A DNA stretch of 64,000 nt from assembly GCF_001941485.1 (NCBI RefSeq), contig NZ_CP009247.1:1302001-1366000 (forward strand), written 5' to 3'. The stretch comes from Corynebacterium frankenforstense DSM 45800. GTDB taxonomy: Bacteria > Actinomycetota > Actinomycetes > Mycobacteriales > Mycobacteriaceae. The notes under the pieces are model-generated. The model did no database searches. It saw only the letters and a list, made by a program, of their open reading frames with translations, and was not told the DNA's origin. A program made the translations under genes and the position numbers. Numbering within the stretch: the first letter of the stretch is position 1; each line of letters starts with the position of its first letter. This document shows, in pieces, positions 46,510 through 51,828 of this stretch.

Positions 46510-46547
46510 CCCGGAGGGACGCGGTGCGCTGCTAGGGTGGCGTCCAA

Positions 46548-46625
46548 GACAACGGGGTGCCCCGCCGAGGGGCTGAGAACACACCCGTGGAACCTGCTCT
46601 AGCTCGCACTAGCGGAGGGATTGTC
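46548..46625 (+). promoter_or_regulatory. TPP riboswitch (THI element)
   Basis: The conserved parts are present in order: GGGGTGCCC, GGGGCTGAGA, ACACCCGTGGAACCTG, CTAGCGGAGGGA. P1 pairs GACAA (46548-46552) with TTGTC (46621-46625). A TAGGGT -10 box at 46533-46538 would start transcription just before it. It lies about 50 bases upstream of the ThiD-TenA gene and should shut that gene off when thiamine pyrophosphate is abundant, probably by blocking translation. Confidence 0.95.
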
Positions 46626-46673
46626 TCCTCGACGCGCGCGGGCCGGGGCCTTCGATACGGAAGGACACCGCCC

Positions 46674-48236
46674 ATGGCCAGCACACAGATCCCCACCGTC
46701 CTCGCGATCGCGGGGACGGACCCCACCGGGGGCGCGGGACTCCAGGCCGACATCAAGGCCATCAGCGAGACCGGGGGTTTCCCGCTGAGCGTGGTGACCT
46801 CGCTGGTCGCCCAGAACACCTGCGGCGTGCGCGAGGTGCACACCCCGCCGGTCGACTTTCTCCTCGCCCAGCTCGACGCCGTCTTCGACGACGTGCGCGT
46901 CGACGCGGTCAAGATCGGCATGCTCGGCACCGCCGAGGTCACCGAGGCCGTCACGGGGTACCTGGACGCCCACCCCGTCAAGACGCTGGTGCTCGACCCC
47001 GTCATGGTGGCCACCAGCGGCGACCGGCTGCTCGACTCCGCGGCCGAGGCCGCGCTGCGCGAGCTGTGCCGGCGCGCCACCGTGATCACCCCCAACCTGC
47101 CCGAGCTTGCCGTCCTGGCCGGGGAGCCCGAGGCGGAGGACCTCGACGCCGCCGTCGCGCAGGGGGCGAGGTTGGCCGCCGAGCTGGGCTGCGCGGTCGT
47201 CGTCAAGGGCGGGCACCTCAGCGAGGAGCGCGCCGACAACGTCTGGGTCTCCCCCGCCGGCGCCACCCACCCCGCGCCCACGGCGCGGGTGGCCACGCGC
47301 AACACGCACGGCACCGGCTGCTCGCTGTCCTCCGCGCTCGCCGGGCGCCTGGCCGCCGGCGACGAGCCCGGCGACGCCCTGGCCTGGGCGACCGGCTGGC
47401 TGGCCGAGGCCATCGGCCACGCCGACGCGCTGGGCATCGGAGAGGGCAACGGGCCCGTCGACCACACGCACCGCTCGCGGCGCCTGGCCGCCGCGGCGGC
47501 CACCACGCCGTGGCCGGAGCCGGCCTCCGTGCCCGAGGCGCTCGAGGCGCCGGAGGACCTCGGCGCACTGGCGACCGAGGGCCTCGAGGCCCGCATCGAG
47601 GCCGCCGGCCCCTGGACCGCCGCGCTGTGGCGGGCCGCCGCCGGGGTGGCCGAGGCCGCGACCACCGGCGAGTTCGTGCGCCGGCTCACCGGCGGCTCGC
47701 TGGCGAAGCCGCAGTTCGACTTCTACCTGCACCAGGACAAGCTCTACCTGGACGACTACTCCGAGGCGCTGGCCGAGGTGGGCACGCACACCCCCGCGGG
47801 CGAGGACCGGCTGGCCTGGTTCCACGACGCCGCCGAGACCATCGAGACCGAGGCCGCGCTGCACCGCGCCTGGTTCCCCGAGGGCGCGGACGCCGAGGAC
47901 CCCTCCCCCGTCACGCTCGGCTACACCAGCTTCCTGCGCGCCGCCGTGCGCTCCGAGGAGCCGTGCGTCGGCGCGGCCGCCGTGCTGCCCTGCTACTGGC
48001 TCTACTCGGAGATCGGGCTGCGCATGGCCGAGCACATCCGCGAGGACCATCCCTACCGCGCCTGGCTGGAGACCTACTCCGACGAGGGCTTCATCACGCA
48101 GACGAAGGCCGCCCTCGCCCGCGTCGAGCGCGCCCTGGCCGCGGGCTCGCCGCGCGGGCGTGCGCGGGCGGTGCGCGCCTTCCTGAACTCCTGCCACTGG
48201 GAGCGGGAGTTCTTCGACCAGGCGTCGCGGGCCTGA
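46674..48236 (+). CDS. thiD: ThiD-TenA fusion: HMP/HMP-P kinase with aminopyrimidine hydrolase domain
   Basis: The 520-residue protein joins two thiamine-salvage enzymes. Residues 1-265 are ThiD: VLAIAGTDPTGGAGLQADIK at the start and the GTGCSLSSALAG anion hole with the KGGH segment; it phosphorylates hydroxymethylpyrimidine twice. Residues 300-520 are TenA, with the catalytic Cys in VLPCYWLYSEIG and conserved DDYSEALAE and LNSCHWEREFF segments; TenA hydrolyses aminopyrimidine breakdown products to HMP. The fusion links salvage to the next step. ATG 46674 has GGAAGG upstream. Expression is controlled by the TPP riboswitch before it. Confidence 0.93.
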   Translation: MASTQIPTVLAIAGTDPTGGAGLQADIKAISETGGFPLSVVTSLVAQNTCGVREVHTPPVDFLLAQLDAVFDDVRVDAVKIGMLGTAEVTEAVTGYLDAHPVKTLVLDPVMVATSGDRLLDSAAEAALRELCRRATVITPNLPELAVLAGEPEAEDLDAAVAQGARLAAELGCAVVVKGGHLSEERADNVWVSPAGATHPAPTARVATRNTHGTGCSLSSALAGRLAAGDEPGDALAWATGWLAEAIGHADALGIGEGNGPVDHTHRSRRLAAAAATTPWPEPASVPEALEAPEDLGALATEGLEARIEAAGPWTAALWRAAAGVAEAATTGEFVRRLTGGSLAKPQFDFYLHQDKLYLDDYSEALAEVGTHTPAGEDRLAWFHDAAETIETEAALHRAWFPEGADAEDPSPVTLGYTSFLRAAVRSEEPCVGAAAVLPCYWLYSEIGLRMAEHIREDHPYRAWLETYSDEGFITQTKAALARVERALAAGSPRGRARAVRAFLNSCHWEREFFDQASRA

Positions 48237-48430: not shown

Positions 48431-48496
48431 GTGAACACCCCGTCTGGCCACCGTCACACCCGGCCCACGCCCTCGCCCGGAAGGATGTGTGCCCAC

Positions 48497-50608
48497 GTGA
48501 CCACCACGACCGCCCCGAACGAGACGTCCTCCGCCTGGGCCGGCTTCACCGCCGGAAACTGGCAGGACGAGATCGACGTCCGGGACTTCATCCAGCGCAA
48601 CTACACCCCCTACGACGGTGACGCCGGCTTCCTGGCCGGCCCCACCGACAAGACCCGCAGGGTGTGGGACCACCTCGAGGAGAAGTACCTCTCCGTCGAG
48701 CGTGAGCGCCGCGTCTACGACGTCGACACGAAGACCCCGGCGGACATCGACGCCTTCCCCGCCGGCTACATCTCCGAGGACGACGACGTGGTCGTCGGCC
48801 TGCAGACCGACGTCCCGCTCAAGCGCGCCATGATGCCCTTCGGCGGCTGGCGCATGGTGCAGACGGCGATCAAGGAGGCCGGCAAGGAGGTCGACCCGGA
48901 CGTCCGGGAGATCTTCACCCGCTACCGCAAGACCCACAACGACGCCGTCTTCGACATCTACACCCCGCGCATCCGCGCCGCGCGCTCCTCCCACATCGTC
49001 ACCGGCCTGCCGGACGCCTACGGCCGCGGCCGCATCATCGGCGACTACCGCCGCGTCGCGCTCTACGGCGTGGACCGGCTGATCGAGGAGAAGCAGCGCG
49101 CCAAGGACTCCGTGGCCGACAAGCCCTTCTCCGAGCACTGGGCGCGCTTCCGCGAGGAGCACGCCGAGCAGATCAAGGCGCTCAAGAAGCTCAAGCACAT
49201 GGCGGAGCTCTACGGCTTCGACATCTCCGGGCCGGCGACCACGGCCCAGGAGGCCGTGCAGTGGACCTACTTCGCCTACCTGGGCGCCGTGAAGTCCCAG
49301 GACGGCGCCGCGATGTCCATCGGTCGTCTCTCCGCGTTCCTCGACATCTACTTCGAGCGTGACCTGGCCGCCGGCCGCATCACCGAGGAGGACGCCCAGG
49401 AGATCATCGACGCGCTGGTGATCAAGCTGCGCATCGTCCGCTTCCTGCGCACCGAGGACTACGACCAGATCTTCTCCGGCGACCCGTACTGGGCCACCTG
49501 GTCCGACGCGGGCTTCACCGAGGACGGCCGCAACCTGGTCACCAAGACCTCCTTCCGTCTGCTGCAGACCCTGCGCAACCTGGGCCCGGCCCCGGAGCCG
49601 AACATCACCGTCTTCTGGGACCCGGACCTGCCGGAGGGCTACAAGGAGTTCTGCGCGGCGATCTCCATCGAGACCTCCGCGATCCAGTACGAGTCCGACA
49701 AGCAGATCCGCAAGCAGTGGGGCGACGACGCCGCCATCGCCTGCTGTGTCTCGCCGATGAAGGTGGGCAAGCAGATGCAGTTCTTCGGCGCGCGCGTCAA
49801 CGCCGCCAAGGCGCTGCTCTACGCGATGAACGGCGGCCGCGACGAGGTCACCGGCAAGCAGGTCACGGAGGAGGGCCTCTTCTCCCCCATCACCACCGAG
49901 GGCCCGCTCGACTTCGACGAGGTCTGGCAGAAGTACGAGGAGATGCTCGACTGGGTGGTGGGCACCTACGTCGAGGCGCTCAACATCATCCACTACTGCC
50001 ACGACCGCTACGCCTACGAGGCCGTCGAGATGGCGCTGCACGACTCCGACATCGTGCGCACGATGGGCTGCGGCATCGCCGGCCTGTCGATCGTCGCCGA
50101 CTCGCTGTCCGCCATCAAGTACGCGAAGGTCACCCCGGTGCGTGACGAGTCCGGCCTGATCGTCGACTACATCACCGAGGGCGACTTCCCCGTCTACGGC
50201 AACGACGACGACCGCGCCGACGACATCGCCGCGACCGTGGTCTACACCGTCATGGAGAAGATCCGCCAGATCCCGCTCTACCGCGACGCGATCCCGACCC
50301 AGTCGGTGCTGACGATCACCTCGAACGTCGTCTACGGCAAGGCCACCGGCGCCTTCCCCTCCGGCCACGAGGCCGGCACCCCGTTCGCGCCGGGCGCGAA
50401 CCCGGAGAACGGCGCCGACAACCACGGCATGGTCGCCTCGATGCTCTCGGTGGGCAAGCTCAACTACGAGGACGCCCTCGACGGCATCTCGCTGACCAAC
50501 ACCATCACCCCCGCCGGCCTCGGCCGCGACCGCGAGGAGCAGGTGACCAACCTGGTCGGCGTCCTCGACGCGGGCTTCGTGATGAACCCCGAGAAGTGCG
50601 ACAACTGA
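48497..50608 (+). CDS. pflB: Pyruvate formate-lyase, catalytic part lacking the glycyl-radical segment
   Basis: The 703-residue protein matches PFL along most of its length. The two catalytic Cys are C416-C417 (IACCVSPMK), at the E. coli positions 418-419. It breaks pyruvate and CoA into acetyl-CoA and formate. It ends [26 protein letters not shown] with a stop at 50608, just before the segment that in E. coli carries Gly734. That segment is encoded by the next gene. It is not a frameshift: the gap to the next gene is 52 bases with its own ribosome site. GTG 48497 has GGAAGGA upstream; ATG 48485 and an earlier in-frame start at 48431 are alternatives. Confidence 0.93.
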
Positions 50609-50660
50609 GACCCTGTCCCCCGACCCCCTGAACCACCCCGATTCCCTGAAGGAGCCAACC

Positions 50661-50912
50661 ATGACCACCCCCACCTTCGACGAGCGCCAGGCCGCGATGA
50701 AGGCCGCCCGCACCGAGGCCAACCAGGACGCCGGCCTCTACCACGCCAACATCAACGTCCTCGACGAGTCGACCCTGACCGACGCGATGGAGCACCCGGA
50801 GAACTACCCGAACCTGACGGTGCGTGTCTCCGGCTACGCCGTCAACTTCGTCAAGCTCACCGAGGAGCAGCAGCGCGACGTCATCTCGCGCACCTTCCAC
50901 CACTCCAGCTAG
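50661..50912 (+). CDS. grcA: Separate glycyl-radical domain protein (GrcA-like) completing PflB
   Basis: This 83-residue protein carries the glycyl-radical motif RVSGYAV, with Gly58 as the radical site, preceded by [24 protein letters not shown] and followed by [19 protein letters not shown]. It lines up with the last ~60 residues of E. coli PflB and with the C-terminal half of GrcA (YfiD). The upstream pflB product stops exactly before this region, so the radical must be supplied in trans. AAGGAG (50650-50655) six bases before the ATG is a strong independent ribosome site, so equal or higher synthesis than PflB is possible. The first 25 residues are charged and specific to this protein. Confidence 0.93.
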
Positions 50913-50952: not shown

Positions 50953-51828
50953 GTGGCCAACGACGGCATCTCCGGGGTCGTCTCCCTCGAGCCCGAGGCG
51001 GGCGAGCGGGTCCGCGGCGCGGCCGCCGGACTCGGCGTGGGCCTCGAGCTGCCCGAGAGCGAGATGGACCGCGCCCAGCTCCTGGAGGCCCGGCGCACCG
51101 GCGAGGTCGCGCTGGTCCACTCCTGGGAGCTGGTCACGGCCGTCGACGGCCCGGGCACCCGCCTGACCGTCTTCCTCTCCGGCTGCCCGCTGCGCTGCCT
51201 GTACTGCCACAACCCGGACACGATGCAGATGCGCACGGGCACCCTGGAGTCGATCGACGACATGGTGCGCAAGGTGCTGCGCTACCGGGCGGTCTTCCGC
51301 GCCTCCGGCGGTGGGCTGACGATCTCGGGCGGCGAGCCGCTCTTCCAGATCGCCTTCACCCGCCGGCTGCTCGCCGAGGTGCACGCCGCCGGGGTGCACA
51401 CCTGCGTGGACACCTCCGGCTTCCTCGGCGCACGCCTGCGCGACGAGGACCTCGAGAACGTCGACCACGTGCTGCTCGACGTGAAGTCCGGCGACCCGGA
51501 GACCTACCGTAAGGTCACCGGCCGCGACCTGGCCCCCACCATCGCCTTCGGCGACCGGCTGGCGCGGCTGGGCAAGACGGTCTGGGTGCGCTTCGTGCTC
51601 GTGCCGGGCCTGACCGACGACCCCGACAACGTCGCGAAGGCGGCCGACATCGTCGCCCGCTGGGAGAACGTCGAGCGCGTCGAGGTCCTGCCCTTCCACA
51701 ACATGGGAGCGGACAAGTGGCACGAGCTCGACATGCACTACACCCTCGACGGGGTCAGCCCGCCCAGCGACGAGTCGCTGGCGGCGACCCGGGAGATCTT
51801 CCGCTCCCGGGGGCTGACGGTCTTCTAG
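50953..51828 (+). CDS. pflA: Pyruvate formate-lyase activating enzyme (radical SAM)
   Basis: PflA uses SAM and a 4Fe-4S cluster to abstract a hydrogen from the glycyl residue. The cluster Cys are C78, C82 and C85 (GCPLRCLYCHNPD); GGGLTISGGEPLFQ is the SAM-binding strand and LLDVKSGDPETYRKVTG is PflA-specific. At 291 residues it is about 45 longer than the E. coli enzyme because of an N-terminal extension rich in Glu, Ala and Gly (residues 1-50) without Cys. GTG 50953 has AGAAAGG (50939-50945). In this organism its substrate is probably the small protein alone or its complex with PflB. It is the last gene of the pfl operon. Confidence 0.94.
   Translation: MANDGISGVVSLEPEAGERVRGAAAGLGVGLELPESEMDRAQLLEARRTGEVALVHSWELVTAVDGPGTRLTVFLSGCPLRCLYCHNPDTMQMRTGTLESIDDMVRKVLRYRAVFRASGGGLTISGGEPLFQIAFTRRLLAEVHAAGVHTCVDTSGFLGARLRDEDLENVDHVLLDVKSGDPETYRKVTGRDLAPTIAFGDRLARLGKTVWVRFVLVPGLTDDPDNVAKAADIVARWENVERVEVLPFHNMGADKWHELDMHYTLDGVSPPSDESLAATREIFRSRGLTVF

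Follow-up and report, generated by a model that had tools for sequence, protein, structure and literature searches.

A pyruvate formate-lyase locus of Corynebacterium frankenforstense with the glycyl-radical domain on a separate gene

The pfl locus and its parts

The DNA analysed here, a 64,000-nucleotide stretch of the C. frankenforstense DSM 45800 genome (contig NZ_CP009247.1; hereafter the window), harbours three consecutive plus-strand genes coding for a pyruvate formate-lyase (PFL) catalytic core, an 83-residue protein with a glycyl-radical motif and the activating enzyme PflA, whose gene starts 40 bases downstream of the small gene (Table 1). The frame of the core is open from an upstream GTG at 48431 (725 residues in the ORF list), and the start used here gives 703 residues. 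The core is 58% identical to E. coli PflB over E. coli residues 8-694, carries its cysteine pair within AIACCVSP and scored 667.8 bits with PF02901 and 992.9 bits with TIGR01255 (profile positions 1-679 of 744), just below the cut-off of 994.2 for the latter. The Pfam Gly_radical profile was split over both proteins, with positions 1-65 on the core and 66-106 on the small protein. An earlier note on this DNA had described a 703-residue core that contains C416-C417 and ends before the radical segment, followed by a gene for 83 residues with RVSGYAV (Gly58) that resemble the end of PflB and GrcA; ORFs, alignments and profile matches bear out this description, the small protein aligning to E. coli PflB residues 697-759 and, with its residues 20-82, to the E. 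coli spare part YfiD (6owr).

Table 1. Features of the pfl locus, in window coordinates
Feature	Position	Strand	Remarks
PFL catalytic core gene	48497-50608	+	703 aa, GTG start; without glycyl-radical domain
Codons of Cys416-Cys417, catalytic cysteine pair	49742-49747	+	by alignment to E. coli C418-C419
Core tail	50579-50605	+	9 residues past the last residue aligned to E. coli PflB
Core stop codon TGA	50606-50608	+	followed by a 52-base gap
AAGGAG Shine-Dalgarno site of small subunit	50649-50654	+	inside the 52-base gap
Putative radical subunit gene	50661-50912	+	ATG start, 83 aa, NCBIfam GrcA2
Predicted N-terminal helix of radical subunit, residues 6-19	50676-50717	+	conservation; AlphaFold2 model
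Gly58 codon in RVSGYAV	50832-50834	+	expected radical site (E. coli G734)
PflA, radical SAM activating enzyme	50953-51828	+	291 aa; TIGR02493 296.4 bits, cut-off 231.75

With respect to the PFL family TIGR01255, the core possesses the core domain, adjacent catalytic cysteines and pyruvate-site residues, and a dedicated radical SAM activase is encoded by an adjacent gene, whereas the radical domain resides on a separate 83-residue protein rather than on the same chain. We therefore file the pair as a two-chain variant and not the core as a standard member of TIGR01255. The small protein scored above the cut-off of NCBIfam GrcA2 (NF008341; 157.5 bits versus 145), far under that of the E. coli GrcA family (TIGR04365; 84.7 versus 170) and at 99.5 bits with GrcA3 (NF038360; cut-off 158). 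GrcA2 is a name borne by many corynebacterial proteins, and it and GrcA3 denote a cofactor, whereas here the small protein is the missing end of the shortened PFL next to it. Directly upstream of the pfl locus lies a thiamine gene (ORF 46557-48236; NF011301 hydroxymethylpyrimidine kinase, 701.6 bits, with a TenA-like end) with a TPP riboswitch at its start (RF00059 at 46543-46637, 65.5 bits, gathering threshold 54.3).

Searching the whole genome with E. coli PflB returned exactly two places, corresponding to residues 8-694 and 697-759 and both within this locus, so that residues 695-696 are the sole ones left unmatched between the two ORFs. PF02901 gave one match in the genome, and the third match of PF01228 is NrdD, the anaerobic ribonucleotide reductase (TIGR02487 620.6 bits, cut-off 326). 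This class III reductase (L001, G000:C1:2123459-2126764) has its own glycyl-radical domain on the same chain. The full-length PflB elsewhere in the genome that the earlier note had named as a refuting observation was thus not found, by E. coli PflB and profile searches of a one-contig genome with a completeness of 99.99. These searches bear on the reading that the small protein is a GrcA-like spare part for a full-length PFL encoded elsewhere, as its resemblance to GrcA (6owr) and its NCBIfam name would suggest. Besides the missing second PFL, the 96 Corynebacterium genomes with a PF02901 match (see below) have one such match each, except for one genome (G130) in which the gene is cut by contig ends, and the small protein neither reaches the GrcA score nor shares the cell with a detectable full-length PFL. 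The spare-part reading is refuted for this genome, barring a plasmid or missing contig with a full PFL, and we regard it as extremely improbable. Since no other PFL radical domain was found that could serve the core, the small protein is predicted to restore the activity of the core.

Conservation of the break across Corynebacterium

To compare loci within the genus, we sampled 201 Corynebacterium genomes, that of the window included, and examined all loci of genomes positive for PFL or GrcA2. GrcA2 exceeded the cut-off in 97 and PF02901 in 96 genomes, and neither was found in the remaining 104. The small gene was present in all 96 genomes with PF02901, and the extra genome (G170; L065, 4760-6339) retains just the last part of the core next to an intact small gene and PflA. 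The complete order of core, small gene and PflA on one strand was found in 94 of the 97 loci, complete meaning that the match covers at least 681 of the 703 core residues and at least 269 of the 291 PflA residues; in loci with the small gene the cores are 81-91% identical to that of the window. The pflA start lies more than 300 nt past the small gene in one locus only (L070). The locus of G130, cut by contig ends, still displays the stop and a 34-base gap, thus being split too.

Variability of the small gene at codon positions 1, 2 and 3 averaged 0.10, 0.06 and 0.29, respectively (95 of the 97 genes, those with exactly 83 codons), as expected for a protein under selection, which points to purifying selection. 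Together with the conservation across the genus, this codon pattern excludes a chance ORF. Among the 95 cores that we aligned (two of the 97 loci being omitted for incomplete cores), R179, A271, F326, C416, C417, F430 and R433 were identical in all and W332 was kept in 94, with R instead in one; we take these eight to be active-site residues from the E. coli structure. That a single gene was broken in this strain, by sequencing error or as a pseudogene, is refuted by the genus comparison: 94 of 97 loci share the break, along with a start codon and mostly a ribosome site, the small gene has the codon pattern of a selected one and nothing was found in favour of an error, leaving this reading a practically nil probability. 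The comparison supports the view of the earlier note, which had argued from the 52-base gap and its AAGGAG, that the break is no sequencing frameshift. Its other proviso, that relatives might be fused and the break confined to a single strain, does not apply either, as the nearest relatives are split and fused ones lie further off, with the exception of G121.

In G121 (L064, 1612-4092) the stop is lost and core and small gene form one continuous frame, in which the ribosome site and ATG of the small gene are still present. This is either a natural re-joining or a sequencing error. Among the best 120 of 6742 long matches to the joined end of G121 in a search of 5.8 billion proteins, Corynebacterium was absent from the named rows and no match exceeded 85%; most of these rows are nameless, and G121's own protein is absent from the 120. 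That the intergenic stretch of G121 runs on in frame once the stop is lost would fit a reading in which stop read-through or frameshifting joins both frames during translation, so that a single chain is also made. Across the other 96 loci, however, the gap between core and small gene ranges from 3 to 287 nt (median 41) and its lengths fall in all three frames (39, 24 and 33 loci), with all three stop codons in use at the end of the core (TAA in 65, TAG in 23 and TGA in 8). Translational joining has, in our estimation, a very slim chance of being correct.

Both ends created by the break have features of their own. In the closest single-chain actinobacterial PFLs (e.g. Cellulomonas, Sanguibacter, Propionibacterium and Bifidobacterium) the motif NLVGILDAG-x-GxGL(Y/F)HANINVL spans the break site, while Streptomyces and other single-chain PFLs differ across it. 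Corynebacterium cores end with DAGF or DSGF and 4-19 further residues that most often start with IM and are mostly acidic (on average 2.0 D/E versus 0.17 K/R in 94 tails). The small protein starts with about 22 new residues, followed mostly by S or A and a ten-residue segment, and this N-terminal stretch is absent from the single-chain PFLs compared. In the 97 small proteins R9, M13 and R17 are invariant, as is SGYAVNF, and K14 and F6 are kept in 96% and 94%. AlphaFold2, applied to the small subunit by itself, gave a low-confidence model (mean pLDDT 68) with residues 6-19 as a helix (pLDDT 62-66 for the block), in which positions 9, 13 and 17, spaced four apart, would lie on the same face. This new basic helix is a candidate binding adaptation, and the acidic core tail perhaps another.

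Origins of the split and a second form elsewhere

Outside Corynebacterium, the corynebacterial form of the split (type A) was detected in the family to which G339 belongs (3 of 99 genomes). In a sample of 396 genomes of the phylum, two families of another class (f19 and f40, probably Coriobacteriia) have stand-alone radical proteins that score about 93-104 bits, and all 21 of their loci are split. These loci belong to a second form (type B), which resembles the first in that a core without radical domain is followed by a small glycyl-radical protein and which also occurs in Bacillota, Melainabacteria and spirochaetes. The type B break lies about 16 residues upstream of the corynebacterial one: the core stops after LGK and a tail, and the small protein starts with a DNLV..(L/I)D.Y segment, whereas in Corynebacterium NLV..(L/I)D.Y stays on the core. 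We would guess that the small proteins of type B belong to GrcA3. Many type B core tails (L201-L221, L224-L303) are acidic and contain cysteines (e.g. DCACCEP, CDCC and GCCEG), possibly a metal or docking site.

Two PDB entries named formate acetyltransferase, 38la and 38lb, matched the core but did not appear among the 34 hits obtained with the small subunit, so these chains seem to lack the radical domain. Over its matched part, 38la shares 99% identity with a 666-residue protein of Amygdalobacter nucleatus; for the matched part of 38lb the figure is 83%, with a core of family f19. Among the best 80 of at least 575 loci near the 666-residue form, which were picked by likeness to a split core and hence are no census, 58 were split and 21 fused, and one is interrupted by a contig end; split type B loci include those of Ruminococcus, Lachnospiraceae, Erysipelotrichaceae, Gastranaerophilales and spirochaetes.

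To trace the origin of both forms, we inferred a quick tree of 82 cores with the radical domain left out. The 19 Corynebacterium rows and G339 fall among fused actinobacterial PFLs and 31 type B rows among fused Bacillota PFLs; a common clade of all 51 split rows was rejected (p-AU 1.0e-40). Because fused rows surround both split groups, the fused state probably came first, the count of changes being neutral on gain versus loss. The tree requires at least three changes of state, which we take to be two splits plus a single reversal to one chain, the latter apparent from two Lachnospiraceae PFLs (L296 and L298) that are single-chain and lie inside the type B split clade. A two-piece PFL seems to have evolved on at least two occasions among bacteria.

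A second quick tree, with 44 rows, placed two partial cores from a family other than that of Corynebacterium (G608 and G655; L306 and L305) inside the genus, which suggests a transfer, likely horizontal, of the split-PFL unit. G339 came out as sister to the genus. Type A formed one group with a support of 92, under the starred level, and four fused PFLs of the type A kind were found in the family of G339, branching further out. By sequence, the lineage's own actinobacterial PFL supplied the small protein, which is the end of that enzyme with a new conserved N-terminal stretch added; that the E. coli spare part was taken up as a subunit is improbable. The proposal of the earlier note that the spare part is the normal design here therefore stands as far as the split is concerned, which is the normal design, and probably falls as far as the identity of the small protein with the E. 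coli spare part is concerned.

A predicted two-subunit enzyme and the exchange of its radical domain

The E. coli PflB (PFL 1; PDB 2pfl and 1h16) shares the cysteine pair, the active-site residues and the glycyl loop with the corynebacterial proteins, but it is one 759-residue chain, whereas here two chains are encoded, with the division falling between E. coli residues 694 and 697 (gene numbering). The spare parts GrcA/YfiD of E. coli and Y06I of T4 are stand-alone glycyl-radical domains like the small protein. According to PMC8683613, these two were the only characterised GrcA proteins as of 2021; YfiD has a disordered 60-residue N-terminus and acts beside full-length PFL, and its residues 61-127 fold like PFL residues 693-759 into strand, glycyl loop and helix. 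The corynebacterial small protein, by contrast, has a shorter conserved stretch in place of the disordered N-terminus, and no full-length PFL was found beside it. The same study reports that an engineered E. coli PFL (tPFL, residues 1-695) combined with YfiD reached wild-type activity once activated, with binding undetectable and radical formation 32-fold lower (PMC8683613). This artificial cut coincides almost exactly with the natural corynebacterial break. The activity of the engineered pair indicates that a complex of such a layout can work, while its weak binding and poor radical formation indicate that such a split is not automatically competent. In corynebacteria, a layout that assembled poorly in E. 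coli seems to serve as the sole PFL, and by analogy the corynebacterial pair would have to bind better.

We consider it very probable, from the sequence comparisons, that the locus encodes an obligate two-subunit PFL together with its activase. Speaking against it, besides the behaviour of the engineered E. coli pair, are the joined frame of G121, the reduced core of G170, the R found at W332 in one core and the low pLDDT of the modelled small subunit. The core would contribute the cysteine pair as well as the binding sites for pyruvate and CoA, and the 83-residue subunit would supply the strand, glycyl loop and C-terminal helix found at the end of a single-chain PFL. Upon binding of the small subunit, its strand HANINV would replace the last barrel strand of the core, and its basic N-terminal helix (R9, K14 and R17, with F6 and M13) would dock on the core, perhaps on the acidic tail. 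PflA would then generate a radical on Gly58, whose transfer to Cys417 and Cys416 would allow the usual PFL reaction. Cleavage by oxygen would affect the small subunit alone, at Gly58, after which a new copy could reactivate the enzyme.

The proposed exchange of a damaged radical subunit for a fresh one is a possibility that we put somewhat below even. It receives some support from the ribosome sites, that of the small gene being predicted to be stronger than that of the core in 72 of 95 loci, equal in 5 and weaker in 18 (Wilcoxon p 4e-8, with kin genomes counted as independent and the best core start within 20 codons taken). The window goes the other way (core Shine-Dalgarno -9.5 versus -8.4 for the small gene), and this slightly stronger core site speaks against overproduction of a replaceable part here. 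The split may instead be real and obligate and yet serve no repair, if the two chains form a permanent complex as stable as a single chain and the break, once fixed by chance, persisted through inheritance, a reading to which we accord a nearly even chance. A single origin can explain all type A cases, which lie on one side of a branch (support 92), and type B occurs in clades that we take to be strict anaerobes, where oxygen repair should matter less; the apparent return to a single chain in L296 and L298 and the in-frame join of G121 also fit. Against it stand the two breaks, which are separate in the tree and differ in position but both lie just before the radical domain, as well as the new conserved N-terminal stretch on the small subunit and the prevalence, outside the window, of stronger ribosome sites on the small gene. 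A broader proposal on the side of exchange is that at least two splits, at different points, divided PFL into a durable core and a radical subunit that is cheap to exchange, that the oxygen-cut 9-kDa part is replaced as standard in many corynebacteria and gut anaerobes and that the corynebacterial basic N-terminal helix solves the binding problem of the engineered E. coli pair; in this full form we hold it to be rather doubtful.

As GrcA2 is a curated family and two solved chains seem to lack the radical domain, the parts were already known to databases: the small-protein family certainly and, seemingly, two cores. Searches of the open-licence PMC literature (outside of which lie subscription journals and preprints), exact phrases included, gave no paper on a naturally split PFL among the matches listed.

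PFL is a central enzyme of fermentation and the model for the formation, damage and repair of glycyl-radical enzymes. Every PFL-bearing Corynebacterium genome sampled, bar one joined case, encodes PFL in two natural pieces, and the natural pair would provide wild-type parts with which to study recognition, activation and replacement of a separate radical domain, for which work in E. coli used a cut enzyme that hardly bound the spare part (PMC8683613). With the oxygen-fragile part on a small subunit of its own, its swap after damage becomes a testable question. Finally, formate production in many fermenters may be misdescribed where such cores are annotated as complete PFLs or the small gene is taken for a repair factor.
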